From Branchiostoma floridae (lineage: Eukaryota > Chordata > Leptocardii > Amphioxiformes > Branchiostomatidae): a stretch of DNA of 64,000 bases. Below, in pieces: positions 1,206 through 63,990 of the stretch. Within the stretch, counting starts at the first letter, position 1. Every line of letters begins with the position of its first letter. The stretch lies in NCBI RefSeq assembly GCF_000003815.2, contig NC_049979.1, positions 5,694,762 through 5,758,761 on the forward strand. The letters are read 5' to 3'. The position numbers and the translations under genes were made by a program. The notes under the pieces were generated by a model. The model had not been told where the DNA came from and ran no database searches. It saw nothing but the letters and a program-made list of their open reading frames with translations.

Positions 1206-1350
1206 TGAGACATGTCTTCTGTACTTCAGATGTGTTTCTTGTACTTAAGACATGTCTTCTGTACTGAAGTCATGTCTCCTGTACTTAAAACCTGTCTTCT
1301 ATACTTAAGACATGTCTCTTGTACTCAAGACCTGTCTCCTGCACTTAAGA
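1206..1350 (-). repeat. Minisatellite copying a terminal exon end and its stop codon
   Basis: Five to six units of about 29 bp share the core tgtacttaagac. Read on the minus strand, the unit contains the TCTTAAG that ends the reading frame of the exon at 1345-1503 (stop TAA at 1345-1347). The array therefore starts at the stop codon and runs into the 3' flank, as it does for MRPL14 at 38452-38760. Confidence 0.65.
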
Positions 1351-2100
1351 CCCGTCAGCCAGACGAAGGTCCAGCTCCTCCTTCTCAGGAGGCTCGGTGG
1401 CGCCGTAGGTTTTGTGGTTCCCGTCCTTCATTGGCGGGGCAGACTTGGGCGGCGTGGTGGGCGACACGGACGCAGGGTCCATCAGCAGGGCAGACACAAA
1501 CGGCTGTGGGAGACAAAAGAAACATTAGTAGGAGACACTAACGGTTGTGGGAGACAAGAAACATCAGAAGGAGACACTAACGGCTGTGGGAGACACAAAC
1601 GGCTGTGGGAGACAACAAACATCAGTAGGAGACACAAACGGCTGTGGGAGACAACAAACATCAGTAGGAGACACAAAGATCAGTAGGAGACACTAACGGC
1701 TGTGGGAGACAAGAAACATCAGTAGGAGACACAAAAGGCTGTGAGAGACAAGAAACAACAATAGGAGACACAAACGGCTGTGGGAGACAAGAAATATTAG
1801 TTGGAGACTATAGCTGAAGGTTAGAGGGGCTACTTGTTGCCCTTGTAATTTCAGGCTGTCTCTAGTTATGGTTAGATAAAATTTACTTGTTTTATGATAT
1901 ATAGCCTGGGTCCTGTGGGCTAAAACTGTTAGCTGAAGGTTAGAGGCATTAATTTTTGTGATTTGAGTAAATTCTGTTAGTGCCCCTGTTTGGTGGGCAG
2001 GAGAGAGTGGGGCATGCTGGTCTTCAGGCTGGGAGAAAGAGAAGTTTGAACTTGACTGCAGGCTTACCAAGTCCCCGATGTCAAACGGTGGGTTGAAAAA
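1345..2100 (-). CDS. Last two coding exons of an unrecognised gene
   Basis: Two exons join in phase 0. The first, 2068-2100 (33 bp), follows an acceptor ending ctacatgtag, encodes FFNPPFDIGDL and ends at the donor TTG|GTAAGC. The second, 1345-1503 (159 bp), follows the acceptor ctcccacag, encodes 52 residues beginning PFVSALLMDP, and ends LRLADGS-stop. The tail is rich in Pro, Thr and acidic residues (TTPPKSAPP, EPPEKEELD) and looks like a flexible cytosolic C terminus. I do not recognise the family. Upstream exons should lie at coordinates above 2100, between here and the divergent E2F gene, but I could not identify them; part of that space is an assembly gap. Both exons have consensus splice sites and GC-richer coding-like sequence. 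The last exon is flanked by arrays on both sides. Confidence 0.55.
1501..1811 (-). repeat. Acceptor-type junction minisatellite
   Basis: About eight copies of a unit near 39 bp (core cggctgtgggagacaa) adjoin the exon that ends at 1503. On the minus strand each unit reads TCTCCCACAG followed by CCGTTTGTGTC, the real acceptor plus the first exon bases. The array lies upstream of the exon in transcript order and supplies several decoy acceptors. Confidence 0.8.
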
Positions 2101-2305
2101 CTACATGTAGAAGGAAATGTGGTGAGAAGCATGAAGACAGTATTAAACAGTATGAAGACTTTGTGGGAACTACCTCAAGAGTATTGAAGTGTGGGATTTA
2201 TACTTTTCACAGGAGAGCAGTAATTTTCCGTATATGTGCATAATATAACATAATAATTGTTATCATTTAGGGGTGTTTTTTTACTGAGAAGTTTATGTCT
2301 TTAAT

Positions 2306-2641
2306 GTCAATGGACCGATCCTGATTGAACGCGACATCGAACAAAGAGAACCAGGTAGAACCCCCTACCCCCTATTCTGTTCCAAACACCTCTGTCAAAA
2401 ATAGCCCCAGTGGGACAGAAATGGCCAAAGAAAAATGCTATGCCTTTTTTGTTGAAGACTTTACCCACGGCCCTGTCTGAGAGGACTTCAGGACCCAAAA
2501 AGCTAAACAAAAGTCAGTCGTTTTTATCAGCTAAGCAACGGTGGCGGCCAGTGCTGTCCAACAAGCACCGTTTTTTACAGAGGTGTTCGAAATAGAACCA
2601 TGATCGAACAAAGGACAGGGATTCAGGATCAGTCCATTGAC
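2306..2641. mobile_element. Inverted-repeat (MITE-like) element, about 336 bp
   Basis: The left end reads gtcaatggaccgatcctga and the right end, reverse-complemented, reads gtcaatggactgatcctga, a near-perfect 19-bp terminal inverted repeat. No transposase reading frame is present, so it is a non-autonomous element or foldback. Target duplication is unclear. Confidence 0.55.
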
Positions 2642-2806
2642 TGATTGATCAACTGACTGATCGATTCACTGATTGATCAATTCACTGATTGATTGACTGA
2701 CTGATCNNNNNNNNNNNNNNNNNNNNNNNNNNNNNNNNNNNNNNNNNNNNNNNNNNNNNNNNNNNNNNNNNNNNNNNNNNNNNNNNNNNNNNNNNNNNNN
2801 NNNNNN
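2642..2806. other. TGAT/TGAC simple repeat running into an assembly gap
   Basis: Tetranucleotide-like tgat/tgac repeats (2642-2706) lead directly into 100 N (2707-2806), the usual placeholder for a gap of unknown size. The repeat probably caused the assembly break. Confidence 0.8.
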
Positions 2807-4349
2807 ATTTGGAAAAAAAAATTACCATGTCTTATGAAGTTATGGTGGACTTTGGATTGAGCTCAGGGGTAAAAGTTGTAAAAGACTGCTTTGATAGAGT
2901 GTAGCTAATCAGACAATTTTCTCCTGGATTGTTGTCTAGTCAGCTGTCATTATTGCAAGTATGGTTTTAATAGCCTTTCATTAGTTTCAAGACTTGGGCT
3001 ATCAATTGTACAAGGGAACAATAGGTATTGTCCCATCTCAATACACCAACCGTAGGGGAGGGAAAAAGTGTGAATTTGTATTGTAAGAGGGGTGAAAATT
3101 GTTTTTTACTCTCCTATCATGCCTAATACAATATGATTTCCAGAATTTTAGTGGGGTCTAAAATCTTTTCATTGCATGGGGTAAGAAGAGAATTGGTTAT
3201 CGAAGCCAGAAAAAAGAGCAGGAAGCAACCAGATATTAAAGAGATTTGGCTACCTAAACAAAAATCTGTCAAATGCTCCCGCCACAGAATATGTAAAACA
3301 GTTTGAGAATCTTTTTTTTTTTCCTTTGAGTCTGACAAAAGTTTTCAAATTAGACAATTCACAAGAAGGAAAGTTTAAACTTTGTACCCAGGTGTGAACT
3401 GGTCTCCTGTTCACAGGCCATGATCAAAAGACAAGATTAAACCAACATTTTTTTAATCATCTTACTGGGGTAGCCTTTTGACACTATCTTTGTATTGATT
3501 ATTGGATTAGAAAACAGGATGCAGGTAAATTTTCATTCAACCATTCAAGAGAATAGATTTTTTTAGACAACATCCTAAAACAAAGCAAAACATGGAACGT
3601 GGGGAGCTCATACCCCCGATTTGGCGACCTCACTTTCCTATAGATTTCATTGAATGTTTTAGACCAAACAGGCTGGAATTATTCATTGCAAGATTTGTTT
3701 ATCCTATCACTGTTACGCTGTTAAATTAATGCATATTCCATCCCCTAGCGCACATACCACAACATGAAATGTACCCCTGTAGCTTTACACGTCCAAGATA
3801 AACAAAATCTGTGAATATTTTTTCAGGGTGGGGGCTCCCGTTGACACGTTTGTAAGCAAGTCCCGTCACCGTTACAATAGGCCGACTCTTTGCACTGCTG
3901 TGTAACGTTCTAGTCACTGATTTTCAAAGGAGCTTCTTATCTTGCCTGCCAATATTGTCAACAACATGATGTAGATACTAGAAACGATAACACAGATTGC
4001 AGTAGGAGTGTCCCAAGGATAGAAATTTGTTATGGCAGACAGAACTTTAGCCCTCCAATGCTCTGTCCCGAAAAACTGAACGTCTTGACTTGAAATTGTA
4101 TTTTTGTAAGCTAAACTGACAGAAATAAGAACAACATGGGCTCTCAAACTTTAAGTGGGAGGGGGAAATTTAGACTAAAGTAGCTAGCAACAGCCCTGGC
4201 TGGCTTTTTTTCTGCCAAATGTAGTATTGTTAATTTGTAAGAATTTTGTCAAGACAAGTATTACCCATGATTTACCTACCTAATTAAGACATGCTGCAGT
4301 TTTTAATATTGAAGATAATAAGTAACACAAGTGTTGTCTTTGTTCACAG
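2807..4349. other. Spacer and 5' flank of the E2F gene
   Basis: AT-rich sequence with no exon I can support. The splice acceptor tgttcacag at 4341-4349 shows that the E2F transcript has a non-coding first exon upstream, probably in this interval. The missing upstream exons of the gene at 1345-2100 may also lie here. A hydrophobic minus-strand reading frame (3914-4147) was considered and not called. Confidence 0.5.
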
Positions 4350-4361
4350 ATTTAAGCAGTC

Positions 4362-7300: not shown

Positions 7301-8014
7301 CAGTCATATTATGCAGATAACTCACATGCAAATTATGATTCACTGCTGGAACATGACTCAGGCTAAGTCATGTGTTCTATCCGCATTTTTTTTGGTTGAA
7401 AATTAAAGTTTAACTGGCTGTAAAACATTCCTTCTTTATGACAGGTCCAGGGCCTTGAGATGAAGTATGATGAGATGATGGAGCAGGTGAAACAGCAGGA
7501 GGAGGAGGATGAGTTTGAGCCGAGATCTCGCAAGGCGCCGCTCCACGTCAACAAGGACATGAACATGCCTAACCGCACAGGCTACCGCTTCGATGCCTCT
7601 TCTATCCTGAAAGGTAGGAAGGTTTGACTATTGATATATAGACATGTCACGATGTCAGTGTTTTTGGTTGTCTTTCATGGTACAGTATATTATTCGGTGC
7701 CCCAAAGAAGTAAAGGTTAAGATAGACCAACAGCTTTTTTTGGCCAATGGGGCAGTCGGTGAATTGTTATCTGAAGAACACAATGTCTAGCCAGTAATGC
7801 CAGGGATCAAACCCGTTCTTGTGTCCAGTAGCCTAGTGTCTAAGCCAATCAAGGCCATCGAGTTTAGATAAAAGATTTTTTTTGTCACAGTTTGACTGAC
7901 TTTCATCTTTCTTTCTTCCAAACAGCTGGTGCCACTGCCATTGCCATGAGTCGTAGAGACAAGTCCCTCGGGGCCATGAGCCAGAAGTTCATCATGCTGT
8001 TCTTGGCTTCAAAT
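4362..8014 (+). CDS. E2F7/8: Atypical E2F transcription factor (E2F7/E2F8 type), 5' portion
   Basis: Five coding exons join with matching phases: 4362-5062, 5226-5305, 6833-6963, 7445-7613 and 7926-8014, giving 390 codons. E2F7 and E2F8 are repressors of G1/S and DNA-damage genes that bind DNA without a DP partner because they carry two winged-helix domains. The first domain (about residues 222-304) begins [12 protein letters not shown], contains [13 protein letters not shown] and ends NRYNWHGR. The second starts near residue 370 with [13 protein letters not shown] and is cut off after LFLASN. The N-terminal region is Ser/Thr/Asp-rich, with a motif (NLxxLxSAxSPD) present twice at residues 138-184. 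The start follows an acceptor and short leader. The remaining exons are absent: a 259-N gap follows, then the tail of a minus-strand gene. Confidence 0.95.
5507..6744. mobile_element. Pogo/Tigger-like non-autonomous DNA transposon in an E2F intron
   Basis: A 1238-bp element is bounded by cagtggaattcgcttat on the left and the inverted end attggaatccactg on the right, flanked by TA on both sides (5505-5506 and 6745-6746). The cagt...ttcgctta start resembles pogo-family termini from memory. No transposase frame is visible. It lies inside the intron between E2F exons 2 and 3. Confidence 0.75.
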
Positions 8015-8330
8015 GTAAGTCTTCATGTTGAACCTAGCTTTACCATGTCAGGAATTCTTATGTGTAGAAAAGCATGCTCTTCTTGGCTTCAAATGTAAGT
8101 CTTCATGTTAACCCAAACCTCACCATGTCAGTAATTCTTATGTGTAGAAAAGTATGCTCTTCTTGGCTTCAAATGTAAGTCTTCATGTTAACCCAAACCT
8201 CACCATGTCAGTAATTCTTATGTGTAGAAAAGTGTGCTCTTCTTGGCTTCAAATGTAAGTCTTCATGTTGAACCAAACCTTCTTGTCAGTAATTGTTATG
8301 TGCAGAATAGAATGGCCAACAAGGTTGTCC
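7999..8330 (+). repeat. Donor-type junction minisatellite after E2F exon 5
   Basis: Four copies of an 80-bp unit follow the exon. Each carries the last exon bases ttcttggcttcaaat joined to gtaagtcttcatgtt, with donors at 8015, 8095, 8175 and 8255. The copies differ by a few substitutions. Every copy preserves the GTAAGT donor. Confidence 0.9.
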
Positions 8331-8378
8331 CTCAATCCAACTGAAATATTTGACAATTTTGGTTACACAGCTGTAATT

Positions 8379-11900: not shown

Positions 11901-14900
11901 TTATATACAGCCAGTGTAAACACGAAATGTTTTTGGTCTTTTTCCAGTGCAAATTTCACTGTCTATGGAAGGTTTTAGATGGTTTAGAACAAAAAAAGGG
12001 AATATAAGTGACAGATAGCTTTTTGCAAGTCCGGACTTTGCTCCGGCCATTTAGGTTTTTTTTTACTTGGACCTAAACATTTTTAGGTCCAATTCCAAGT
12101 CCAGGCTTTAGGTACGCACCACTAGTGGCAAGTATGAGAGAGTGAGTGTGTTTGGGAGGGAGCGCTGCATGCTAGCTGGGTTTGGGTATTTGCTGTGTTT
12201 GGGTGTGTGCTGTGTTTGGGTGTGTGTGCTGTGTTTGGGGTGTGTACTGGGTTTGGGGTGTGTACTGGGTTTGGGGGGTGTGCACTGGGTTTGCACCTAT
12301 TAAGTATAAAATAACGGTTGCTAAACAATTTCAGTATGATCCATACTTCCTAAATTCAGAGTGGTGCAGGTAAAATTTATCTGGTTCAGGTAATTTTCAA
12401 TGCCACCTGGGGTTAGGGGTGGGGGGTGTAGTTATGGGTTGCATTTACCAAGTCTGATGATGGAGAAGAAGAGTAGACTGCACTGCAGCAGCACGGCAGC
12501 AGCAATGACGTAGTTGACGGCCGAGTTGTGGATGTCGGGGCTGATGCGAGACGGGTTGTAGGCGTAGTAGATGTTGTACCTGTCCACCAGGTGCTTCAGG
12601 ATCATGTACGTCAGACCTGCAGGACAACACCTGGTGTTACTAACATCATACATGCACACCTGTCCACCTCTGTACCTGTCCACCACAACACGGGACCGTT
12701 ACCGAAGGGTACGATGAGTGTACTGGTGTGAGACCAGACCGAAGGGTATGATAAAAAGACAGGTGTGAGACCTTACTGAAGGGTATGATGAGCGGACAGG
12801 TAATGCTATAGAGACCTTACCGAAGGGTACGTTGAGTGGATAGGTATGAGACCTTACCGAAGGATACGATAAGCAGACAGGTGTGAGATCTTACCGAAGG
12901 GTACCATAAGCGGACAGATGTGAGACCTTACCGAAGGGTACGATGAGCGGACAGGTGTGAGACCTCACCGAAGGGTACGATAAGCAGACAGATGTGAGAC
13001 CTTAACGAAGGGTACGATAAGCAGACAGGTGTGAGACCTTAACAAAGGGTACGATGAGCAGACAGGTGTGAGACCTTATCAAAGGGTACAATGAGCAGAC
13101 AGGTGTGATACCTTACCAAAGGGTACGATGAGCGGACAGGTGTGATACCTTACCAAAGGGTACGATGAGCAGACAGGTGTGATTCCTTACCGAAGGGTAC
13201 GATGAGTGGACAGGTGATGCTGTAGACTGTGGTAATGGTGAAGATGCACATCATCCAGGCGTACTGCGTGCCGAACTGGAAGTCGTACACGATCTCCTGT
13301 CTGACGGCGTGCTTCTCCGCCTCGGTGCGGGTCAGCAGCAGCCACCAGGCGTAGAGAATCAGCTCCGGGAAGCGGATCAGCTCCAGCGAGGTCCCGATGA
13401 ACCCTGACGTGATGACGTAGTTCACGAAGAAGGCACCGTTGTCTGGCAGGAAGATGCACCTAAAGAAACAAGCAAATGGGTGGGGGTGGTAATCAGTCAC
13501 AAGGTGCAGAAGTGATCGGAGCTCTACAAATCTGCCCGAGTGGCGACATGTTGTCCCTGGACAAATAAATAAAATCAAATGAATGAAATCTGAAACTTAC
13601 GCCCATTTGGTTTGCTGTCCTTCTGGAGTCAGCGCAAATTCCACAAACGCCTTCAGACTGAAACAAAGAGAACACAACAAGGTCAGGACATGTTCAGATC
13701 AAACCTGTTCAGATGAGCTCATGTATGCATTATACATTGTATGAAGAAACCCCAAACAGAAACACACATACACACACAGGCCATCCTTTCTTTGAGACAA
13801 GTCTTAATTGCAAGTTCTTAAGTTAAAGATCTAAAACATGTTTGATTGTGTAACCACCTTGTGAGTCCCAGCGAAGGCAGGATGAGAGTCATGAACAACA
13901 AGAAGACGAAGGTTTTCCTCATCACACTGTGGTTAAAACCCGACCTGAGGAAGGCAGAGGGACACAGAGTTAGCCAGGTATCGTGGGATCAAAAGCACAA
14001 CACAACTATCACTATAACTGTACAGCATTGCTATCATTATAACTGTACAGCATTATCATCATTATAACTGTACAGCACTACTATCTACCTGTGCTATCAC
14101 AATTACACACTTCTACATGTAGGGCATCTAACCTGGGATGGGCTGACCAGAGACTTTGTGAAAGACTCAGGCTTCTTTGGAAATCATCAGATAAAAACAG
14201 CTTGTTGAATCTTATTATCTTGATCATTGCAGGACTGTTAGTTAAAAGCCTTCCAACTGACTTATATTTGTGCAAATGGAAATTGGTGACTTTCTCAGGA
14301 CAGTCTTCAATGTTTCAAAAAAGGCTGTTCTGGAAAACTATCAACAGTTGTTGTTTCGTTACCTTGCCAAAACTTTTTTGATTGTCAACCAATCAATACA
14401 CTACTTATCAGTGTGGATAGCCATATTAATACTAGTCTATGTGCATGTAGCATGTAAGTGTTGACGAGAGCCTTACTTTGTCCAGTGTCCTTCCAACAGA
14501 GAAGTTCGGTAGACCAGAACGGGCAGCACAGCAGTGAAGGTCCAGAGGAGCAGGGTGGGCAGAGTCTGTGATATCAGTGGGCTCTGCATGGGGGAGGAAG
14601 AGAGTCTGTAATATCAGTGGGCTCTGCATGGGGGCACGGGAGGAATGACAATTGTGGGTATTACAATTGTGTTGTGGGTACAGGAGAGAAAAATACACGG
14701 TGACAAGCTTTATTTTATTCCAGTTGGCTAATTACATGTAGGTATTTAAAGGAGCCTTCCTATCGTAGTTCCTAACATAGTTCCTATGGCAGGAGCAGAA
14801 CTGCTTTTAATGGCACAAGGCAAGGGGCCATGCTATGGTACTGGTTCCAGTACTTACATTGTTAGGAGAACTGCTATGGCACTAAGGAAAGGAGCCACGC

Positions 14901-31856: not shown

Positions 31857-31881
31857 GGCTGCTCAACACTAACTAACGGAC

Positions 31882-38451: not shown

Positions 38452-38760
38452 ACACTGCTGACCAGGCCAAAGTGTTGGCTATCGCTTCTAGGTTCATCTA
38501 AACACTGCTGACCAGTCCAAGGTGCTGGCCATCGCTTCTAGGTTCATTTAAACACTGCTGACAAGTCTAAAGTGCTGGCCATCGCTTCTAGGTTCATCTA
38601 AACACTGCTGACCAGTCCAAAGTGCTGGCCATCGCTTCCAGGTTCATCTAAACACTGCTGACCAGGCCCAAGTGCTGGCCATCGCTTCTAGGTCCATCTA
38701 AACACTGCTGACCAGTCCAAAGTGCTAAGCCATCGCTTCTTGGTACCAAAGTGCTGGCCA
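38452..38760 (+). repeat. Stop-codon minisatellite downstream of MRPL14
   Basis: Six units of 50-51 bp (core gctgaccagtccaaagtgct plus ggccatcgcttc) copy the last codons of MRPL14, [10 protein letters not shown], and the TAA. Because 50 is not a multiple of three, copies are not translated in tandem. They form the start of the 3' UTR or flank. Confidence 0.93.
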
Positions 38761-48861: not shown

Positions 48862-51800
48862 ATGGCGTCTATAGCAGTGAGCCCTCCAACCAGCCTGGTG
48901 ACAGACAAGGTCGACATCCGAGTCACTGGTCTGGGGAAGCAGCAGCCCGTTACTCTCACTGCTGCAGTACAATATTCCAGGTACAATTACTCTCACTGCT
49001 ACGGTATGATATTCCAGGTACAGTTACTCTCACTGCAACGATAGTACAATATTCCAGGTACAGTTACTCTCACTGCAACGATAGTACAATATTCCAGGTA
49101 CAGTTACTCTCACTGCTACGGTACAATATTCCAGGTACAGTTACTCTCACTGCTACGGTATGATATTCCAGGTACAGTTACTCTCACTGCAACGATAGTA
49201 CAATATTCCAGGTACAGTTACTCTCACTGCTACGATAGTACAATATTCTAGGTACAGTTGCTCTCACTGCGATGGTTTCCAATTTTGTTAGAACCCGTTG
49301 TTTAAGAGCGCGAGTCGTTCCCGCCATCACGGTCGTTAGATGCGCGTTTCCCAGAAATTTGTTGTCTTGGTGGGTAGTTCGAATCCCACCGCTGCCACCA
49401 CGTCAGTAGTAAACTCCAGGGATCGCTAGAACAACTCGTGTGAGGTGGAGGAACACATCTGGGACCTTTCCTCATTAACATATCGGTGATATAACAGTAG
49501 TGCATTAACATAACGGTGAGGTCATAACATAACATAACTGTGGCGCTGCTCTGGTACAATATTCCAGGTACAGTTAGTAACTTACTCTCACTGTTTCTGC
49601 CACACTGTGTAGTGTGGGAGTGATTTTTACAACTACCGATGTATAACTTTTCTACAAATTTCAGGGATGCCCAGTTCCAGTCCCACGCCCACTACGCAGC
49701 CGACAGCTCTGGAAGCGTGGTTTGCAGCAGGCATGCAGCAGTTGGGGGTTCTTTCTCAGGTCACTCTCACTTACTCTGTCCAATAGCTTACATGTCTTTT
49801 TCACTCAGTCCCATAGCTACGAGTCACATCACCTTTTCAGAGGAAGAGGAGATGTAACTTTAATAGTCCACTACTTTTGGTTTTTCTTTTGGTGGAAGTA
49901 AATGACTCAAGTTGAAATGTGGCTTAGTAGAATGGCTTGTTTCTTCTTCCAAGTCGCAAACAAATTACTAGGTTTATCGATATTGTATACATTGTTAACA
50001 TTTGCATGCAAGGACATTTAATGTAACAGGAATGTCTGTTGCACAGGTGTTGAGCAGATGGGTCTGTTGTGGAGTCTGCAGCCTGCAGCAGCTCAGCGGG
50101 TGAAACGTATGATTCCCAGGGACGTCACCAAACCGCTGGAGGTGCAACTGTGCGTGTACGATGGACACATCGACACAAGGAGGGGACAGGACGGAGTGCC
50201 AGCACCACTTGCCTCCTGTGTGGTGGAGAGGAGGTTTATTCGAGATGGCGTCAGGAGGATAGTTGTGCGGGAGGGCCGGGTTAGAGGAGTGCTGTACCTT
50301 CCTGAAGGTTAGAGGAGTGCTGTACCTCCCATAAGGTTAGAGGTGTGCTGTACCTCCCTGAAGGTGAGGTGTGTTGTACCTACCTGAAGGTTAGAGGTGT
50401 CCTGTATCTCCTTGAAGGTTAGAGATGTGCTGTACCTTCCTGAAGGTTAGAAATGTGCTGTACCTCCCTGAAGGTTAGAGGTGTGCTGTACCTCCCTGAA
50501 GGTTAGAGATGTCCTGTATCTCCTTGAAGGTTAGAGATGTGCTGTACCTTCCTGAAGGTTAGAGGAGTGCTGTACCTCCCTGAAGGTTAGAGGTGTGCTG
50601 TACCTCCCTGAAGGTGAGGTGTGTTGTACCTACCTGAAGGTTAGAGGTGTCCTGTATCTCCCTGAAGGTTAGAGATGTGCTGTACCTTCCTGAAGGTTAG
50701 AGGAGTGCTGTACCTCCCTGAAGGTTAGAGGTGTGCTGTACCTCCCTGAAGGTTAGAGGTGTGCTGTACCTCCCTGAAGGTGAGGTGTGTTGTACCTACC
50801 TGAAGGTTAGAGGTGTCCTGTATCTCCCTGAAGGTTAGAGATGTGCTGTACCTTCCTGAAGGTTAGAGGTGTGCTGTACCTCCTTGAAGGTTAGAGGTGT
50901 ACTGTACCTCCCGGAATGATACAGGTGTGCTGTACCTACCTGAAGGTCAGGAGGAGGGTTGTGCAAGAGGGCCAGGTTAGAGGTGTCTTGCACCTGTACC
51001 TCCCTGAAGAGCAAAGTCATTTTTCTTTTGGACTGTTTAGCCACAACCAATGCTGCAGAGTTGATGTTATACACTGTGTACGTAGTTAGCATTTTACCAT
51101 GGTCCACTTCTTTTAGTTGACATCAGTTGAAATAGTTTCTTCAGAGAACCTGTAGCCTTTCACCATAACTTTATGGGTTTGGACAGGAATTTTTAAAATT
51201 ATCTCTTTAATCTCAAGCCTATTTATAAACTGTGTATTGTCATGTGATAATCAACATCATCGGTCATGTGATCAGAGAACTCCAAGATGAGATCTGACTT
51301 ACCGAACCTGAAGAAGAGGCCGAGTATGTATCAAAAGTCTTTTGTTGTGTGTAATCATTTAAATATTGCACGAAAAATAATCTGTTTGCTCTTCTGTTGG
51401 TTTCCAGAGGAGGGTCCTTTCCCCGGGGTGATTGACATGTACGGCTCGGGCGCTAACTTCGAGCACCGCGCCGCCCTGCTCAGCTGCCAGGGCTTTGCTG
51501 CCTTCAGGCTCATGTACTGCAACTTCGACGACCTGCCCAAGGCCGAGACCCACCTCGATTCTGAGTATTTTACGGTAAGGCTCTTCCTCCTGATATTCCT
51601 GATATTCCTGCCTTTGTGACTGCTGACATTGCTCAACACTGAAAGTAAACAGGTTTGAAATGGTTCACAGTAGTCATAGTGAATTTGCACTTAATGAATT
51701 CATCTTTACAGAGCACAACTATGCGTATTAACTTGCCCTATTCCTGCATGTCCGTGCACACCCCTGCATGTCCGTTGCACACCCCTGCATATGTCCGTGC

Positions 51801-54800
51801 ACACCCCTGCATGTCCGTTGCATACCCCTGCATGTCCGTTGTACACCACTGCATGTCCTGTAGCCTGACCCTGTGACTGTCCTGTAACCTGACCCTGTGA
51901 CTGTCCTGTAACCTGACCCTGTGACTGTCCTGTAACCTGACCCTGTGACTGTCCTGTAACCTGACCCTGTGACTGTCCTGTTCCTGTAACCTGAACCTGT
52001 GACTGTCCTGTTCCTGTAGGATGCCGTGGATTGGTTCAGCAGCCACTCCCTGGTGCAGCCCGGGGGGGTGGGGGTGGTCGGGACATCCTTCGGGGGGTTG
52101 CTGGCACTCATCATGGGCACTCTTACGGACAAGGTAGGTCAGCCTGGGGTGGGGGCATTTTTCACAACGGGATCCATGGAGAAAAAAAGTGAGGAAAGGT
52201 TTGTGAGGGTCCAGGTTTGAGTTTACATTTCTCATTATTTACTGCGAAATGACATTAAATACTAACATGGCTGAAAAGCATAGGGCGTGGTGTGTTTCTT
52301 ATGATAATTGTGTTTTGGCCAGATCCTCAGTTCTGGGTATCAGTATGCCCGTATAAAGTTATTTTGCTTCTGGATAACTCCCTAGAAGAGATGATCACTT
52401 GACTTGAGGGTGAGCAGCCTCCAATTGAAACCCAAAATAAACTGGGGAGTGCCCCTTTATGTCTTTCTGTAAAAAGCCTCGACAACCTACATTGGTATGG
52501 CTGACTGTGTCCCATGTATATTACAGATTATATCTTCCTGTGTACAGATAATAACGTTATCTTCCTGTGCCCCATGTACAGATAAATGCAATTGTATGGC
52601 TGAACGGTTTTTCTGCCATGCCAGTCTCAACTCAGTTCAACTACAAGGGCAAGATCCTTCCCACCCTGGGGTAAGCACAGACACGCTCTCTCCTCCCCAC
52701 CCTGGGGTAAGCACAGACACACTGTATCCTCCCCACCCTGGGGTAAGCACAGACACGCTGTCCCCTCCCCACCCTGGGGTAAGCACAGACATGCTGTCCC
52801 CTCCCCACCCTGGGGTAAGCATAGGTGTGACATGTCCATGTTACAGGTGTGGCATGTCAATGTTACAGGTGTGAAATGTCAATGTTACAGGTGTGAAATG
52901 TTAATGTTACAGGTTTGATATATCAAGGGTGAAAGTTATGGAGGAAGGACACCTGTACATTCTGGATACGGTGGATGATCTCGCTCTGGAGCCAGAGAAG
53001 TGCATACAGGTGAGTGAATGCAGTAGCCATAGCAACAGTAGCCATGGCAACACTCTGGAGCCAAAGAGGTGCATAGGTTAGAGCATACCAAACCTTGGTT
53101 AGTGAGGGTTAAGTGTCCTGAGGATGGGTTGGTGAGGGTCAACAGTGTGCTAAGGTTGGGTTGGTAAGGGCTAACTGTCCTGAGGTTGGGTTGGTGAGGG
53201 TTAGCAGTGTCCTGAGGTTGGGTTGGTGAGGGTTAACAGTGTGCTAAGGTTGGGTTGGTGAGGGTTTACAGTGTGCTAAGGTTGGGTTGGTCAGGGTTAA
53301 TAGTATCCTGAGGTTGGGTTGGTGAGGGTTTACAGTGTCCTGAGGTTGGGTTTGGTGAGGTTTAACAACTTAACAGTGTTGCTGAGGGTTAACTGGTGCC
53401 TTGTCCCCCTAGGTGGAAACAATCGCATGTCCAGTCCTGTTTGTGGTCTCAGAGGATGACAAAAACTTGAGAAGTGACAAGATGGCCGAGCAGGTCAGGA
53501 GGTTTTTATAGTACTACATGTTCATTTACCGGTAACAAGCTTGGACCTTGCCTGAAAATAAGAGACTTTGAAATGACTCAGATTTTTAAGGCAGTACTAT
53601 AGATTGTAAACATCAAGTTCCCCTTCATCAATTTCAAAATAGTTCATGAAGGTTGATACTTTCATTCAACACATTTAAGCAATCTGCTCACCTCAAATTA
53701 CTTTCAACCTTACAACCTTCATCATGGATAGTGTACCAACACAGATGAGCTTTCATGTGAAAAATCAATTGTTCTGATCTAATCTTTTTGGTAACTCCTC
53801 AGGGACAAGCCTAATGGTCTAATAGTACTGTGTGCGGTCTGCAAGAATTCTAGGAATTTTACAGGAATGTGTCCACAGGAATGCTAGAGTCCACAGGAAT
53901 GTTTGGAATGTTACTGTGGTGGTGGAAAGTTGGTAATGAAGGCTCCCAGGAGGAATCTAAAATGTATGTATGAAAAGGAAAATCAACAACATTATTGGAC
54001 TTCCAAACAATGAGCAGGACAGAAAAGAAAAGCTGGAGACGACCCTGATCTCGATGTTCCTCAATACATGACTCAATTGTATGTTCCCTAACTTCTAAAT
54101 GTTTTCCCACAGGCCATAGCCCGGATGGAGGCCCATGGGAAAACCAACCATCAGCTGCTTGCCTACCCCGGCGCAGGGCATCTCCTAGAGCCTCCCTACA
54201 TGCCGCACTGCAAGATTTCCTTCCACCCCATCCCAGGTAACCACAACGTTCCTCCACCCCATCCCAGGTAACCCTCCACCCCATCCCAGGTAACCCTCCA
54301 CCCCATCCCAGGTAACCCTCCACCCCATCCCAGGTAACCCTCCACCCCATCCCAGGTAACCACAACGTTCCTCCACCCCATCCCAGGTAACCCTCCACCC
54401 CATCCCAGGTAACCCTCCACCCCATCCCAGGTAACCACAACGTTCCTCCACCCCATCCCAGGTAACCACAACCCTCCACCCCATCCTAGGTAACCACAAC
54501 CCTCCACCCCATCCCAGGTAACCACAACGTTCCTCCACCCCTTCCCAGGTAACCACAACCCTCCACCCCATCCTAGGTAACCCTCCACCCCATCCACCCC
54601 ATCCTAGGTAACCCTCCACCCCATCCAAGTTGTTCTGAAGCACAACAAGGCTTGACTCCAGGCTACTGCAGCCCAGCATTATCATAGTGCTAGTTTTACC
54701 AACTGTGATGTGTTACATGTGCAGTTGTAGATTGGGCATTATTGTAGCGTTAGTTTTACCAACTGTAATGTGTTGCAGGTGCAGAGGTGGATTGGGCATT

Positions 54801-55071
54801 ATCTTAGTGCTTGTTTTACCAACTGTGATGTGTTACATGTGCAGTTGTAGATTGGGCATTATTGTAGCGTTAGTTTTACCAACTGTAATGTGTTACAGGT
54901 GCAGAGGTGGATTGGGCATTATTGTAGTGTTAGTTTTACCAACTGTAATGTGTTACAGGTGCAGAGGTGGATTGGGGAGGGGAGACCAGAGCCCACTGTG
55001 CAGCCCAGGAGGACCTCTGGCCCAGAATGATCGCCTTTCTCAGGAACAGCAGGCTGCACAGCCAGCTTTGA
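48862..55071 (+). CDS. ACOT: Acyl-CoA thioesterase of the ACOT/BAAT family
   Basis: Ten exons join in phase to 420 codons: 48862-48980, 49665-49759, 50047-50307, 51408-51574, 52020-52133, 52582-52670, 52913-53009, 53413-53493, 54113-54236 and 54959-55071. Type-I acyl-CoA thioesterases hydrolyse fatty acyl-CoA to acid and CoA; the related BAAT conjugates bile acids. The length, 419 residues, matches the family (about 418-421). The N-terminal domain has VDIRVTGLGKQQPVTLTA and MGLLWSLQP. The alpha/beta-hydrolase domain has GPFPGVIDMYGSG, the nucleophile elbow GVVGTSFGG (Ser 237), the acid in VSEDD (329/330) and GAGHLLEPPY (His 364). The nucleophile is Ser, as in thioesterases, not the Cys of vertebrate BAAT. 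It ends HSQL, a variant type-1 peroxisomal signal. Seven introns carry junction minisatellites. Confidence 0.95.
48960..49265 (+). repeat. Donor-type junction minisatellite after ACOT exon 1
   Basis: About nine units of 35-38 bp copy the exon end gttactctcactgctgcag-acaatattccag and the donor GTACA. Many copies keep CCAG|GTACAG. Confidence 0.92.
49300..49480 (+). mobile_element. Possible tRNA-derived SINE head
   Basis: A B-box-like gtagttcgaatcccacc near 49375, preceded by tagatgcgcgtttcccag, gives a tRNA-like region. The body beyond is unique within this window. Confidence 0.35.
50308..50990 (+). repeat. Donor-type junction minisatellite after ACOT exon 3
   Basis: About 22 units near 30 bp, core gtgctgtacctccctgaagg plus ttagag, copy the exon end (codons VLYLPE) and the donor GAAG|GTTAGA. 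Higher-order blocks of about five units recur. Confidence 0.95.
51740..52017 (+). repeat. Two arrays upstream of ACOT exon 5, the second acceptor-type
   Basis: At 51740-51855, about six units of 20-22 bp with acccctgcatgtccgt. At 51856-52017, about seven units of 24 bp with cctgtaacctgaccctgtga, leading into the real acceptor ctgttcctgtag. Confidence 0.8.
52671..52820 (+). repeat. Donor-type junction minisatellite after ACOT exon 6
   Basis: Four further copies of ccaccctggggtaagcacag (33-34 bp unit) repeat the exon end and the GGG|GTAAGC boundary. Confidence 0.93.
52835..52912 (+). repeat. Acceptor-type junction repeat before ACOT exon 7
   Basis: Four units of about 20 bp, aatgttacaggtgtgaaatg, end at the real acceptor atgttacag|GTTTGA. 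This intron thus begins with a donor array and ends with an acceptor array. Confidence 0.9.
53060..53400 (+). repeat. Minisatellite in ACOT intron 7
   Basis: About eight units of 35-40 bp share gaggttgggttggtgagggt. No clear splice-junction content. Intron 8 (53494-54112) looks unique. Confidence 0.85.
54237..54625 (+). repeat. Donor-type junction minisatellite after ACOT exon 9
   Basis: About 18 units of 19-31 bp, core ccaccccatcccaggtaacc, copy the exon end (codons HPIP) and the donor CCAG|GTAACC, some with a cacaacgttcct insert. Confidence 0.95.
54690..54958 (+). repeat. Acceptor-type junction minisatellite before ACOT exon 10
   Basis: Four to five units of 60 bp copy taatgtgttacag|GTGCAGAGGTGGATTGGG, the real acceptor and first exon codons (AEVDW), plus cattattgtagtgttag. 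Confidence 0.93.
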
Positions 55072-56220: not shown

Positions 56221-59200
56221 TTACAGATCTCTGAACTTCCAGACTTTGACAGACTTGACCTGCATGGCTGCGTCCTCGCCGTTGTTGTGTGCCGGGTTCC
56301 AGGTGGGCAGCCACTGGTCGCGCGCGCGCCAGAAGCTGGCCATGGCCTCGGAGCGGGACTGCGCGTTGGCCCAGGGCTTGGGGTGCGGCATGTTCACGTA
56401 GTCGTCCATGAAGAAACCGTTCGTCCCGCCAGTGGCCACGTTCATGATCAGGTAGAACTGGAAGAACAAAAATATTTTCTTAGAATCAAAGATAAAGTTA
56501 AGATCCCGTGGACTTGTATTGGTTGTAGGGACAGTGCCAGTGGGTTGGTAGTCCACTGTGTCTAAGGTACGCAAGGTGGAGCTCCTTACACTTCCTTTTA
56601 TACCTACTAGTCGAAGTCAGATGCCCATTTGTACACAGTGCCGACCATAAAGGCTGCTGACGAACTGCCACCAAGCCTCCACATCTACGCGCATGCATGT
56701 CTAACCTTCGCCTGACGAGGAACATCAAAGTACAAGCCCAATAGTGTGTGAGTGAGAGTTGTGGAGTGAAGAAAATTGGAGAAGAAGCATATAGTTGCCA
56801 GGAAAACTCCAATGGTCTCTCTACGCTTCGAAGACCTACGGAGATCACACATTGTATTTTGCACAGAATGTTTCTTTATTTGCAGTGAAACCTGCATATT
56901 TCACGCTGGCGAAACCTACGTCCTGATCCAACGACGCCATCCTGCCCGCCCGACACAGTAACCATGACAATAGTGACCATAGCAACAGTACAGCTGGTGA
57001 AACCTACGTCCTGGTCGAACGGAGCCATCCTGCCCACCCCGCTCCAGGATTTTCGCTGTCTACAGTTACTATGAAAATGGTAACCGTGACAACAGTAACC
57101 ACAGCGAAACCTACGTCTTCGTCGAACGGGGCTATCCTGTTCTCCGCTCCAGGGATTGTCGCTGTCTACAGTTACCATGACAACAGTAACCATAGTGAAA
57201 CCTACGTCCTGCTCAAACGGAGCCATCTGCCCACCCCGCTCCAGGGATCGTTACTGTCTACAGTTACCATGACAACTGTACCGATGGTGAAACCTACGTC
57301 CTGGTCGAACGGAGCCATCCTGCCCGCCCCGCTCCGAGGATTGTCGCTGTCTACAGTTACTATGACAACAGTAACCATGGTGAAACCTACGTCCTGGTCG
57401 AACGGAGCCATCCTGCCCGCCCCGCTCCAGGGATTGTCGCTGTCGGGCAGCCCGAAGTCTCCCAGCGCCCAGAACCCGTTTGGTGGCGACACCGTTAGCA
57501 TCAGCTCATCATCTACGAAGAACCTGGAGCAGAACGGCAAGATAACCATGACAACAGTAACCATACCGACACCGCCAGCATCAGCTCATCATTTTCAGAA
57601 AACCTGGAGTAGAACGGCAAGGTAACCATGACAACAGTGACCATAACGACAGCATCAGCTCATCATCTACGAAGAACCTGGAGCACAATGGCAAGGTAAC
57701 CATGACAACAGTATTGGCACGGCTGGCTTTATCGACTCCCAGGCACCTTTGACCCGCTCCAGACGTCACGTTTCTCGTGACGTCACGTTTCACGGAGTTT
57801 ACTCATGTCAGAAGAGAGTCAGGTCAGGCGCCCAATGAAGACAATGAGATTGGTGTAATTTTCCTTTGTATCGATTCATATACTCCTTAACACCAGATTT
57901 TATCTAACCTTTCAGAATCGATGTTTTCTGTCCATGATACGTCACCAACAACAGATTTAGGGAAAATGGCATATTTTATGATCTTACTTGAGATACTGGT
58001 CTGTCCACACCATGGTCCACTTGTGGAAGTCACTGCCGTATGTCCCTGTGTGCGCCTCTCTGGCAAGGGGCAAGGGACAGTGTAGAGATTGGCACAAGCT
58101 TAAGTCGGCCAGACCAGTTACACACTTCTAGGCAAAATCTATGAAACTTAAGACTTACTTCATACAATTGTTTGTGCATGCCTTCGTGCATGTAACTAAT
58201 ATGTAAAATACAGTAAAGAAGAGCTAAGAAACAAAGATGGCCACAGTTCAACGAGAAACGAGTAACGAATCCTTTTTAAGACAGCTCACTGGAATATCAA
58301 CTACTCAAAATACAAAACCAACACAGTATTAAAAGCAAGTTGTACCGCAGAAATTGGTCCTTATTAAGAACAGTTCTGGTTTGTCCCCATGTGGTTATGG
58401 AGGGATACGAAGAACAAAGGAAAGATTACTTCTCTGCTCTAGTCTTGAAGAAGCCGTTATAAGGCCAGACGCCGCTGCTTCCCCAGTGCAGGGTGCTGGT
58501 GGTGACATCGATGCCGAGGGAGGCGCCCCAGGACGCGTAAAGGTCACGGTTTCCTAGGGATCAGAGGGGGTTACAGGTTACGGTTTCCTACTCAGGACAG
58601 AACAGAGGGGGGTACCGGTTACGGTTTCCTACTCAGGACAGGGGGGTACAGGTTACGGTTTTGACTCAGAACAGAGGGGGGTACAGGTCACGGTTTTGAC
58701 TCAGGACAGAGGGGGGTACAGGTCACGGTTTTGACTCAGGACAGAGGGGTACAAGCCACAGTTTCCTACTCAGGACAGAGGGGGGTACAGGTTACGGTTT
58801 CCTACTCAGGACAGGACAGAGGGGGGGTACAGGTTGCGGTTTCCTACTCAGGACAGAGGGGGGTACAGGTCATGGTTTCCTACTCAGGTCAGAACAGAGG
58901 GGGTACAGGTGACGGTTTCCTACTCAGGACATAACAGAGGGGGTACAGGTGACGGTTTCCTACTTAGGACAGAGGGGGTACATGTTACGGTTCCCTACTC
59001 AGGACAGGGGGTTACAGGTTACGGTTAGGTTTTATACCCATGACAGAACAGAGGGGGATACAGTTTCCAACTCAGAACAGGTGTTAATGCGTTGGAGGCA
59101 TTGTTTTTATTTTGTTCTCAGTTCTAGGAATCTTTTCTGTTTGATGCAGAATTCTAAACTCTCATTTATCGAGAGTTTTGCCCACCTCGTGTCTCCACGA

Positions 59201-62200
59201 TGTCAATCTCCCCTGATCTCGGCCAGTCCCCGTAAACCCAGGTCTGAGGCAGCAACCAGATCGCTACAGATAAGGCAGAGCAAACTCAAGATGTTAGAAG
59301 CCACTTGCAAATAAACAAAGAATTGGTGACATTGCATTAGCGAAGTTTCTAGCAATGCCAGAAATTAACCTTAGATCCTACCTTGACAAGGATAGTTGCT
59401 GTACGACCGAAATTACAGTTAAACCTTGCTGCAGTATTGAAGGTATCATTTATAATGCAATCTCGGCAAACATCAATGAGTAGTGTTGATGGACAACTGA
59501 TGTTAATCCTAACCTTGCCTCGCCTGCCACATGTTTATCCTAACCTTACCTCATCTGGTCACGATTGCCTCATCTGGCCACATGTTCATCCTGACTTGTC
59601 TCACCTGGCCACATGCTCATCCTGACTTGTCTCACCTGGCCACATGCTCATCTGACTCTTACCTCACCTGGCCACGATTGCCTCACCTGGCCACATGTTC
59701 ATCCTGACTTGCCTCACCTGGCCACATGCTCATCTGACCCTTGCCTCACCTGACACATGTCTATCCTCACCTTACCTCACCTGGTCACGATTGCCTCACC
59801 TGACCGCATGCTCATTTGACCCTTACCTCACCTGGCCACGGGTGCCACACCTGGCCACGTGTTCAGCCTAACCTTAGCTCACCTGGCCATATCCAGTCTC
59901 CTGTTGGCATCTTGGCCGTGACCTCCACCTTGCCGTACCTGAAGCTGAAGCTGTGGGCGGTGGTGAGCCTTGCTGAGAGGACGGGAGGCAGGTGCTGGCT
60001 TGGCGAGCCTGCAATGTAGCAGCCGTTCCAGTTCTCCAGGGTGCACGTGCCGCCCACTGGGAGAGGGTATAATAACAACATGGTTACATACAAGCTTCAG
60101 TGCTACACACAAGCTTCTGTATCTGTACTTGTAAAGCTGATATAACCCCCCTTCGTTCAGCTGCTGTCTGGGGGAGCCAGCCATGTACCAGCCGTTCCAG
60201 TTCTCCGGCGCTCACCGCTCTCCGGGTGGGGGAGGTACAATAGCCAGACTTGCACTGCACGAAATGTGGGATTTACCAAACATGGTAATGTAGAATATTT
60301 TAACAATTTTACGCATATATCCATTATTTTCCATCAATTAACAAAAAAGTGGTGTACAAAGTATCTGTAAAAGGCAACACTTATTAGTCGAAAGTGCTCG
60401 AGCCTCTGCTCAGTCCAAAATCGTCCGCTCACATTTGTCCTGCTTTTGGAACACACTTCACTACTTTAGTGGACCAGCTGCCTGCTGTATTGGTGTGACT
60501 TGGGACTAGAGATGGTGCCGCCTTATGTACGCTAGCTGACGATCTTCATTTCACGTTTTGTTTATTTCATTAATGTATATTACACCTTACTATTGTCATT
60601 ATACCCTTTCCGTGTATACTTGCAATTAGCCTTCAGAATTTTCAATAAATTTATTATCATAAACAATGTAGCGATCTTTAGCGATTTAAGTCAATGCTAG
60701 TCTTCCTACGCAATTCTGCTTGTGAGGTTCGCGCTTAAAGGTTCAGGTTTTAGGGGTTTCCTGCGCTTCTCTACGTCCCACCTGATGTGTAGATGGAGTT
60801 TTTCCACCCATTGCCACACATTTGCCCTGCGTCCCCTCCGCACGGAATGGCACATTCTGACTCAGGAGCGGCGCCAAACTTTCCGAAACTGTCCCCACAG
60901 AAACACTCTGTGCCGTACTGCAGCCCGGCGTAGGTGTACCTGTCACAACAAACAAACAAACAAACACAGGTTAATCATGCCGTACTATACCCCAGAATAG
61001 GTGTACATGTGAACATAACAAAGACAGTTTAAACATTCAGTACATATGTCAGAAGTTATAAAATATTCTACAAAGTGAATAAGACATCTAATTCCTACAG
61101 GCCAGTGTCCTAGAGGCTGAGAAATGTGCGGCTTAACCCGCCCTGCACCGCGCAGGATTGTTTGATTGCAAATTGTTTACCTCCTCAAGCGCTGTGCAGG
61201 TGTTTTTTCTTTGCTTGTTTGTGTACCTACCCTGCCTCCGTGCAGTGGTCCAGGCACAGTTTGGGCGTCAGGTAGGGTGATGTCATGTTGTCCCCATTTA
61301 GGTCACGTGAGTCCATGCTCCCGCCATCATGGTAGCACCCGAGGTACAGCGCGTCCTCTGCCGACGATAAATATAACATTAGGACAGAGGATATTCTATT
61401 GTCGTCTTTCCCGATCTATGTGAACGTTATCCAGCACGGGGACAGCCCACAGTGTTCCCACGCCCCCACGTTCCAACCCGATGCCATTTCGGTGACCGGT
61501 CGATATCCGAACGTATCATGCAAAACGTATGAAAATAAAACCGTCAATAACCAATTGTATGGCAATACCGTAAAAAAGTGTTTTAGAAAATTACTGAGAG
61601 AGAGAGAGAGAGAGAGAGATTAGGTTCGAACCCGGTTCAAAAAGCCAGCCCAATCCTTAATACGAGTAAACCTATATTAAATCACGTTGTTTGCGGAACA
61701 GACACTTCAAGTGTACCAATTTGCGATATATGGCAGCGACAGTTTCAAATGGCAACGACCGCTTGCAAGACGGAAATTAGCTGGGGTGACCGCAGTCGCG
61801 CCACCAATAACCATATTCATGGGTCCAAGTGCGCAGCGACAGGTATACTGGGTATAATACGTCAAACTAGTGAAGGCCCCTGAGACTTAAGCAAAACGCG
61901 TATGGACATTGTTTTGAAAATCGAGACAATGAATAATCAAGTCAAGTTGGATGCCTTCATCTTTGACATATTATCCACAATTCCTGTCGCTGCACATGCG
62001 TACTTCGAACCGTGAAGGTGCTTATTGCGCCTCCTCACCTCTCAGGTTGATGACTCCCTCCGTCAAAAACTTCTCCCCGAGCCGCTCCGCCGCCAGCGTC
62101 TGTCACGGGACAGGAGAAAATCAGGTATAAAACTCCCGTTCTGTTGTTGCAAGAGGAACTGGCTGCTTTCATGCATCGCATAGCATAACCAATCTGTTTC

Positions 62201-62975: not shown

Positions 62976-63219
62976 CTGCAAAGAGAAAAGCTTGTCAGCT
63001 GGTTGTAAGGAATCTAAAGGCTAGAATAGAAAGTAAGTATACAGAAGACGACACTAAAGCCTGTTGTCAGATGTTTTGGATGACTGGAATTAAAGGCATC
63101 TCGACCTGATGATCTTTTTAAAAAAAGACTAATTTTCATGTTTGGAAAACTCTTCCGCGATCCGATTTCACAGGAGGGTGTCTATCGCAGTATCATGTCC
63201 CAGCCGTCCCCAGTCGTAG

Positions 63220-63541
63220 CTGCCCCCCCCCCCCCCCAGCCATTTCTTACCCGCCAGCACCCCTACACACAGCCATTACCTACCCCCACATACAGCCATT
63301 ACCTACCCCCTCAACCATTACCTCCCCCTCCCCCTTCACAACCATTACCCTCCACACACACACACACACTCACACACACACACATACACACAACCATTAC
63401 CTACCCCCAACACACACACACAACCATTACCTACCCCTACCNNNNNNNNNNNNNNNNNNNNNNNNNNNNNNNNNNNNNNNNNNNNNNNNNNNNNNNNNNN
63501 NNNNNNNNNNNNNNNNNNNNNNNNNNNNNNNNNNNNNNNNN
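63220..63541. other. C-tract and CA repeats ending in an assembly gap
   Basis: A run of C, then repeated accattacctaccccca and (CA)n, leads into 100 N (63442-63541). The exon of the GH16 gene that precedes 62975 is probably lost here or beyond. Confidence 0.85.
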
Positions 63542-63593
63542 GATAAAGAGGACAGCAGCACCTTGCGGTCCAGCTGGTCCTCCGTCAGCACGG
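63542..63593 (-). CDS. Possible exon fragment at gap edge
   Basis: On the minus strand the acceptor ctgttcacag precedes a 52-bp open segment encoding VLTEDQLDRKVLLSS in one frame, cut by the gap. It could be an upstream exon of the GH16 gene or of another gene. The sequence is not recognisably GH16. Confidence 0.35.
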
Positions 63594-63599
63594 CTGTGA

Positions 63600-63990
63600 A
63601 CAGGTGAGAACAGGTGTAAACATTACACACCTGCTGTGTACAGGTGTGAATATGTGTGAACATTACCCACATGAAGTGTACAGGTATGGACAGGTGTAAA
63701 CATTGAGCACCTGTGGTATACAGGTGTGAACATCACGCACCTACTTTGTACAGGTGAGAACAGGTGCAAATATTACCCACATGTACTGTACAGGTGTGAA
63801 CAAGTGTGAACATTACGCACCTGTAGTGTACAGGTGTGAACATTATGCACATGTAGTGTACAGGTGTGTACAGGTACGAACATTGAACACCTGCTGTGTA
63901 CAGGTGTGAACAGGTGTGAATATTGCCCAGCCCAGGTACGCACCTGCTGAGTAAAGGTGAGCACAGGTGTTTAGCACTACAGCTCAGGTA
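63600..63990. repeat. Minisatellite with tacaggtgtgaacat units
   Basis: About ten units of 36-42 bp share gtacaggtgtgaacattac and gcacctg. It lies beside the candidate exon at 63542-63593, whose acceptor (minus TGTTCACAG) resembles the unit, so it may be another acceptor-type array. Confidence 0.85.

Follow-up and report, generated by a model that had tools for sequence, protein, structure and literature searches.

Large tandem arrays across exon edges in a 64-kb window of Branchiostoma floridae DNA and in sampled genes elsewhere

Genes and tandem arrays of the window

The window, a 64,000-nt stretch of B. floridae DNA analysed at its full length, contains genes for E2F8, TMEM63, MRPL14, CLCC1, an acyl-CoA thioesterase and a WSC-domain protein, and tandem arrays lie across or against exon edges of these genes. 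Tandem Repeats Finder (TRF) returned 56 clusters with a score of at least 50, which together occupy 13.6 kb (21%) of the window. The 55 clusters with a period of at least 10 were classified, 31 as strong (score of at least 200) and 24 as weak (score 50-199). Exon edges were taken partly from homology (TMEM63, E2F8 and thioesterase) and partly from ab initio prediction or inspection.

The first array (1492..1808, reverse strand) was of the acceptor type, with a 39/97 bp unit and 12 bp of an exon defined by open reading frame only. On the forward strand, a donor-type array at 7993..8314 (80 bp unit, 4.1 copies) included the last 22 bp of an E2F8 exon ending at 8014; the exon was identified by homology to E2F8 (PDB 4yo2) and its donor by extension, with which an ab initio run agreed. 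A second E2F8 DNA-binding domain was sought beside the array at 9431, where nothing convincing was found.

TMEM63 lies on the reverse strand. Its donor-type array at 12694..13216 (37 bp unit, 13.9 copies) carried 26 bp of the exon end at 13191, an edge obtained from spliced alignment to solved TMEM63/CSC1-like proteins, and an acceptor-type array at 26764..27105 (79 bp unit, 4.3 copies) carried 54 bp of the exon start at 26817. Two arrays abutted acceptors, one at 15081..15330 (acceptor 15078) almost without exon copy and one at 25059..25204 (acceptor 25054) with purely intronic copies. A further donor-type array at 31087..31646 (257/131 bp unit) contained about 36 bp of an exon end near 31611; this exon was found by homology and its edge set by inspection, the automated alignment having assigned a short exon to the second copy, and the anchor copy held an in-frame stop.

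In the forward-strand MRPL14 gene, an array with a 50 bp unit (38405..38772) repeated the last 15 or so codons, the stop codon and some 3' UTR. CLCC1, on the reverse strand, was identified by a Pfam MCLC match. Arrays flanked both sides of its ab initio exon 43624-43484, one of the donor type at 43220..43520 with 37-39 bp of exon and one of the acceptor type at 43579..44112 with 46-61 bp. The copies of another donor-type array, at 41505..41754, consisted of the end of the CLCC1 exon ending at 41812 plus GTACAGGG, an assignment made from an ab initio exon and from reading the letters. Its TRF edge fell 58 bp short of the donor, and the array was classified as "other".

The thioesterase gene is on the forward strand. 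A donor-type array at 48949..49270 (40 bp unit) included 32 bp of an ab initio exon. The array at 50279..50951, also of the donor type (28 bp unit, 24 copies), had a unit that was nearly all exonic (encoding VRGVLYLPE); here the gene was assigned by ACOT2 homology and the donor at 50307 by inspection, automated models having placed short exons inside the array. Next came an array abutting acceptor 52020 without a junction copy (51743..52018), a donor-type array at 52655..52821 (36 bp unit, 16 bp of an ab initio exon) and two arrays at exons located by ACOT2 homology, one of the donor type at 54222..54626 (22-31 bp subunits, 15 bp of exon) and one of the acceptor type at 54676..54976 (60 bp unit, 18 bp of exon). 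The WSC-domain gene at about 57 kb, which we take to be of the GH16 type, lies on the reverse strand. One of its exons had a donor-type array at 56999..57444 (93 bp unit, 54 bp of exon), for which the donor, 57391, was set by inspection and an ab initio run had the exon ending within the array, as well as an acceptor-type array at 57487..57713 (80 bp unit, 37 bp of exon, exon ab initio). Two more reverse-strand arrays lay at ab initio exons: one at 58562..59026 stopped 8 bp short of acceptor 58553, and one at 59506..59889 was of the donor type with 7 bp of exon.

Placement of arrays relative to exon edges

Fifteen of the 31 strong arrays spanned an exon edge (at least 5 bp of exon plus its intron), four ended within 8 bp of an acceptor, one lay over the MRPL14 end and stop codon, and 11 were placed otherwise. 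None of the 24 weak arrays spanned an edge and one abutted. When arrays were placed at random in 2000 runs, each being permitted to overlap an exon by no more than about one unit, 3.2 of 31 spanned on average, with a maximum of nine, against 16 of 31 observed with the stop-codon array included; the P value from this comparison is softer than it looks because the exon set was curated. Exons with profile support below 25 were left uncounted, except two of TMEM63; several weak ab initio exons were omitted (47426-47274, 41198-41025, 50558-50639, 50752-50779, 52928-53009, 63947-63944, 63593-63562, 57165-57115, 56711-56706, 55497-55493 and 55053-54981), and edges 31611, 50307 and 57391 had been set by inspection.

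The initial annotation had listed 24 positions at which repeat units were thought to copy a splice junction, and this observation was confirmed in part. Sixteen spanned a junction, 11 at donors (8002, 12690, 31080, 41510, 43215, 48960, 50308, 52671, 54237, 56895 and 59530) and five at acceptors (1501, by open reading frame only, 26818, 43625, 54690 and 57524), and the two-sided pattern that it described stands. Four acceptor positions (15079, 25055, 52835 and 58554) merely abutted, the exon copy being absent or uncertain; at 52835 a weak array lay next to an ab initio exon. The other four could not be confirmed: there was no homology at donor position 28590, the array at 30661 began 20 bp into the intron with about 10 bp in common with the donor, that at 31882 lay some 47 bp upstream of the first coding exon, and TRF detected no array at 45424. 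Its statement that arrays away from junctions are few does not hold for the weak arrays, nor for 11 of the 31 strong ones.

Genes elsewhere in the genome were sampled at 42 conserved-gene loci with 264 intron zones. Seven of nine strong arrays spanned a junction by at least 5 bp of exon (four donors, three acceptors); unit starts at any position, with spanning arrays tolerated, would give 2.0-2.7 (P 0.00037-0.0024). The score cut of 200 had been picked after the data had shown the split between strong and weak arrays. At a score of at least 150 the count was 7/11 (P 0.0015-0.0068). No weak array of 18 spanned a junction (1.0-1.2 expected), and for all 27 arrays scoring at least 50 the summed expectation was 3.0-3.9 against seven observed. 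In the window, TMEM63 alone gave 2/7 strong spanning arrays under the strict rule (P 0.05-0.19). The sampled loci held 12 strong arrays; three outside the first or last counted exon were excluded from the nine, of which the first array of L066 and that of L046 look junction-spanning and that of L010 (3209-3522) does not. A fourth array not among the nine, at a donor of L069, scored 199. The sampled introns are not fully independent, since the loci include close paralogs (L057/L058, L035/L037).

Counted per base, duplications were no commoner at junctions than inside introns (10/249 donors and 9/249 acceptors vs 440/5801 control points), and the excess concerns the number of separate arrays only. 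This test and the first strong/weak split were run without L009, L010, L011, L020, L021 and L029, which were overlapping or weakly covered; for the later junction count L009-L011 were restored and L043-L046 added, and L001-L008 and L067 entered no count outside the window. Large arrays occurred in one of 186 introns of CCT genes (eight of the nine multi-exon CCT genes, two of them in part) and all but two myosin loci, vs five of 51 introns of SNF genes and the two other myosins (P 0.002, differing intron lengths being ignored). CCT and most myosin genes are presumably highly expressed.

A reading by tolerance alone holds that duplication is even along genes, that exonic duplications are purged, and that intronic or edge-crossing ones survive with no favour shown to edges. 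It accommodates the two sides, the stop-codon case, the uniform exon share of units and the unremarkable spare splice signals described below; the weak arrays (0/18) fit it, and the pooled outside arrays (7/27) are only mildly above its expectation. It falls short on the strong arrays, both outside (7/9 vs 2.0-2.7) and in the window (16/31 vs 3.2), and we regard it as doubtful, though a serious contender. The part of the initial annotation that appealed to tolerance thus fits as far as it goes, and by itself under-predicts the large arrays. Our modest sample suggests that large arrays are more frequent at exon edges than simple tolerance explains.

Unit content and choice of splice site

The array copies that were read consisted of contiguous, unspliced exon and adjoining intron DNA, so that a spliced-RNA template is unlikely, and in these copies the signature of RNA templating (exon-exon joins, ends exactly at splice sites) was absent. 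The exon share of the unit ranged from 8% to 100%, a spread indistinguishable from uniform over 25 arrays (KS P 0.26), so that unit edges do not coincide with the splice site. Nearest-copy offsets were 28-133 bp at 27 of 28 junctions, the remaining one being 227 bp and abutting only; best TRF periods reached 257. Unit lengths showed every phase: 18 of 28 were no multiple of three, as chance predicts.

These observations bear on a junction-targeted process, in which R-loop, splicing-linked or RNA-templated repair would duplicate DNA at splice sites, as the initial annotation had proposed. Such a process would account for the excess of large arrays at junctions, but the unspliced copies and the unit edges placed away from splice sites speak against it. 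Weak duplications, its expected first step, show no excess (0/18), the presumably highly expressed CCT and most myosin genes are the poorest in large arrays (1/186 vs 5/51 introns), and the MRPL14 array covers a stop codon, which is not a site of splicing. We consider this process improbable, and the interpretation offered in the initial annotation is on the whole partly supported.

GT or AG had survived in 115 of 127 spare copies, as might be expected if selection preserved these sites in reserve or for use in alternative splicing. Yet the splice-core positions of the spare copies varied no less than their neighbours (18 arrays, P 0.39), and with unit phases at chance this role seems very improbable. 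An initial P of 0.006 for core conservation was lost once the truncated outermost copy was removed and a matched window used; likewise, the exon-derived parts of spare copies had seemed more alike (P 0.007), an artefact that disappeared without that copy (P 0.15-0.22).

Unaided spliced alignments chose the exon-proximal copy at TMEM63 edges 26817 and 13191, at thioesterase edges 54236 and 54959 and, outside the window, in L050, L059, L066 (two), L070 and L045. In four cases (31.6 kb, 50.3 kb, 57.4 kb and L052, with a 12-bp exon) automated models located a whole exon or the end of one within the array, the three in the window then being set by inspection; inner copies may therefore be in use. 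In most cases the exon-proximal site agrees with the conserved protein, consistent with its being the one used.

Relation to known amphioxus arrays and to intron gain

The arrays of the window are of the same kind as the published amphioxus mirages, a kind already known, and what the initial annotation says of them is correct: they have been published, and for both sides of the exon (PMC3087553). PMC3087553 and PMC3902484 describe mirages in Adh3, the globins BflGb6 and BflGb9, troponin C and PGBD5 as tandem copies across 5' or 3' exon-intron boundaries with units of about 10-160 bp. Splicing is reported there as undisturbed, with normal mRNA despite the extra splice signals, and the Adh3 mirage showed length polymorphism and somatic instability. 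The present arrays share the unit lying across an exon-intron boundary (15/31 strong arrays in the window, 7/9 outside), the involvement of both boundaries and, for 27/28 junction offsets, the published range of unit length. Unlike in those accounts, many arrays lie in one 64-kb stretch, some exons are flanked on both sides and one array contains a stop codon; a further difference is the count against chance in sampled genes. A search for the GFP family, intended as a check on amphioxus identity, gave no match, and its control gave none either. Like ordinary intronic minisatellites, they have fractional copies, near-identical units and many unit lengths; unlike them, the large ones are in excess at exon edges.

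The age of the introns could be judged in the SNF family; of TMEM63, only one copy was found. The donor of a 125-bp SNF exon carried an array in L070, and no array scoring at least 150 was found at the same donor in L068, L069, L071, L072, L073 or L045. Array-bearing SNF introns exist, with equal exon lengths, in array-free paralogs, so the introns there predate the arrays. In the Rogers model of intron gain, a duplication likewise crosses an intron-exon boundary, but there it makes a new intron, as PMC4974935 shows for a potato gene. That the arrays are intermediates of such gain, as proposed for amphioxus globin genes (PMC3087553) and as the thioesterase array at 50279, whose unit itself provides the donor AAG|GTTAGA, might invite, is most improbable given the older SNF introns.

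Proposed origin of the arrays

The explanation that we judge probable, with appreciable doubt, is mirage-type minisatellite turnover hidden by splicing, together with an unexplained bias towards exon edges. A stretch of DNA crossing an exon edge would be tandemly duplicated, and the array would then expand, contract and homogenise like any minisatellite. If splicing stays on the exon-proximal site, that is, the first donor copy or the last acceptor copy, the extra copies would be intronic and the protein unchanged. A stop codon could act as an edge in the same way, the extra copies turning into 3' UTR. That splicing removes the extra copies appears likely from the sites chosen in alignment. 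Large arrays were about threefold more frequent at junctions in the sample than under uniform placement, and exon-flanking DNA may thus be a favoured place for them to start or last. The post hoc score cut, the absence of a per-base excess and the automated exons inside arrays weaken this explanation. A bolder version, which we put forward tentatively and hold to be rather unlikely, is that exon edges in themselves, and stop codons with them, seed large minisatellites or keep them going: each exon would be an anchor from which arrays grow outward, the constrained exon copy re-seeding the unconstrained intronic array.

Because they set numerous nearly identical splice sites next to one another in natural genes, junction-spanning arrays offer ready-made tests of spliceosome site choice; they also bear on the idea that introns originate by duplication. 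If the exon-edge excess holds genome-wide, it would point to an unrecognised bias in the start or persistence of minisatellites, and annotation and assembly of such genomes would need care at exon edges.

Whole-genome pattern counts

Pairs of 9-mers 16-46 bases apart were counted over the whole genome, with the reversed pattern as control; no clean donor signal emerged from these counts and no conclusion was drawn. AAGGTAAGT gave 31 matches (10 reversed), the GT-to-GA control CAGGAGAGT gave 24 (58 reversed) and the acceptor-like TTTTGCAGG gave 18 (10 reversed). Higher counts were obtained for CAGGTAAGT (260 matches vs 4 reversed) and CAGGTGAGT (1701 vs 4). Among the matches listed for these two, most appeared by eye to belong to an interspersed element of 51-bp period arranged in inverted pairs, and those listed for CAGGTGAGT also included the window's own array at 9431-10425.

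Large tandem arrays at exon edges

The window (G000:C1:5694762-5758761) is part of an assembly of 513 Mb with 431 contigs, and tandem-repeat clusters of score ≥50 (n = 56) occupy 21% of it. Matches of translated segments placed there a minus-strand gene for a TMEM63/CSC1-like channel, its N-terminal part matched separately, together with an atypical E2F (E2F8), MRPL14, CLCC1 (through Pfam MCLC), an acyl-CoA thioesterase and a WSC-domain gene, which we take to be of the GH16 glucan-binding type. For TMEM63, E2F8 and some of the thioesterase, exon edges were set by spliced protein-to-genome alignment against solved homologs, and exons of CLCC1, the WSC gene and the remaining thioesterase came from an ab initio run with training genes from outside the window. 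Since the automated models put exons or exon ends within the array, edges 31611, 50307 and 57391 were set by inspection.

The initial annotation had held that array units copy splice junctions and that few arrays lie away from them. The first proposal was borne out for 15 of the 31 strong arrays (score ≥200), which span an edge, but for none of the 24 weak arrays (score 50-199). A further four strong arrays abut an edge, one lies over a stop codon and 11 lie elsewhere, so that the second proposal was not sustained. When array position was compared with random placement, 16 strong edge arrays (the stop-codon array included) were observed in the window against 3.2 expected.

Two TMEM63 arrays on the minus strand illustrate the arrangement. 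In the array at 27105-26764, the 79-bp unit consists of 25 bp of intron end and 54 bp of exon start; the copy running on into the conserved exon is the last one, and the exon start encodes NPLLWLHT, aligned to NNLLWLHT in a solved CSC1-like protein 2. The array at 13216-12694 comprises about 14 repeats of 26 bp of exon end plus 11 bp of intron, and here the conserved exon adjoins the first copy. In MRPL14 (38405-38772), roughly the final 15 codons are repeated in tandem together with the stop codon, and the copies run into the 3' UTR; this array lies at an exon edge that has no splice site.

In TMEM63, the anchor copy that closes the first coding exon (31612-31646, minus strand) carries an in-frame TGA where the next array copy (31354-31392) has TGG; the difference could be allelic, could stem from copies being confused during assembly or could reflect genuine use of another copy.

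Arrays in genes sampled outside the window

To be free of the choice of window, we searched the whole genome by family for CCT chaperonin, myosin-head and SNF transporter genes, blind to repeats, and analysed a sample of them; profiles made from the family-search matches served to map their exons. The 42 loci, with 264 intron zones, held 27 arrays of score ≥50 in or across those zones. If duplications were born evenly and survived in introns or across edges without edge preference, 2.0 (shortest period) or 2.7 (best period) of the nine strong arrays would be expected to span a junction. Seven did so (four donors, three acceptors; P 0.00037 and 0.0024, respectively), although these P values do not come from a pre-set test, because the cut-off was suggested by the strong/weak split of an earlier, looser count (36 gene models including TMEM63; 9 of 12 strong arrays spanning and none of 16 weak ones). 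Among weak arrays outside the window, none of 18 spanned a junction against 1.0-1.2 expected. Under the strict rule, TMEM63 alone gave two spanning arrays out of seven strong ones (P 0.05-0.19). Another three strong arrays fell beyond the exons that entered the count at their loci; of these, two seem to span a junction and one does not.

The excess over such even tolerance in the sampled genes, which is limited to large arrays, together with the array over a stop codon, suggests that the exon edge counts rather than splicing, and we infer that the birth or persistence of arrays is favoured there.

Large arrays were found at a rate of 1 per 186 introns in CCT and all myosin loci except two, and of 5 per 51 in SNF and these two other myosins, L059 and L066 (P 0.002; total intron lengths were unequal, 70.8 kb versus 30.1 kb). 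Muscle myosins and CCT are highly expressed. If the array-poor genes are the more highly expressed ones, either transcription-driven array birth would be disfavoured or selection against arrays would be stronger in CCT and most myosins.

In L066, presumably a type I myosin-like gene (G000:C10:21155200-21158400; contig 10 of the same genome), a 3.2-kb stretch holds arrays at an acceptor, at the same exon's donor and at the next acceptor, where the unit is repeated 22 times. In the SNF search, the same profile stretch was matched twice (1-42 and 11-39) at G000:C7:214065-214190 and 214263-214349, with starts 198 bp apart; this double match may possibly represent another donor-type array.

Content of the copies and age of the arrays

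The array copies consist of exon and intron in unspliced form. Exon sequence made up between 0.08 and 1.0 of the unit (n = 25 arrays; KS versus uniform, P 0.26), and the nearest-copy offset was not divisible by three in 18 of 28 cases, in line with chance. GT or AG was intact in 115 of 127 spare copies, that is, copies other than the exon-proximal one. With the truncated outermost copy left out, splice core positions in spare copies varied no less than their neighbours (P 0.39), and exon-derived parts were not significantly more alike than intron-derived ones. The spare copies thus give no sign of selection.

Three SNF exons were compared among genes. In L070, the 125-bp exon bears an array at its donor, and six other genes showed none of score ≥150 at that place; the 104-bp exon has one in L045 and none in five other genes; the 233-bp exon has one at its acceptor in L046 and none in L044. 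In these cases the introns predate their arrays.

Relation to published cases and other repeats

The 'mirage' minisatellites mentioned in the initial annotation could be traced: PMC3087553 describes tandem duplications across exon-intron boundaries in amphioxus globin genes under that name, notes both boundaries, cites Adh3 and other loci, and proposes intron gain. PGBD5 and troponin C are added as further cases in PMC3902484. The window arrays add a dense group of new, well-supported examples to this known kind. No genome-wide count of such arrays was found in a search of mainly open-access literature, which does not prove its absence.

Downstream of the E2F8 exon array, a 35-bp unit is repeated 28 times (9431-10425), many copies containing CAGGTGAGT, and no exon edge could be placed at this array. 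An interspersed element found genome-wide carries 51-bp tandem repeats that contain CAGGTAAGT/CAGGTGAGT and form inverted pairs with a spacing of about 1 kb (for example, G000:C1:9479866-9481441, C1:29239917-29241473 and C2:2328458-2330010); it resembles a transposon whose subterminal arrays are inverted.
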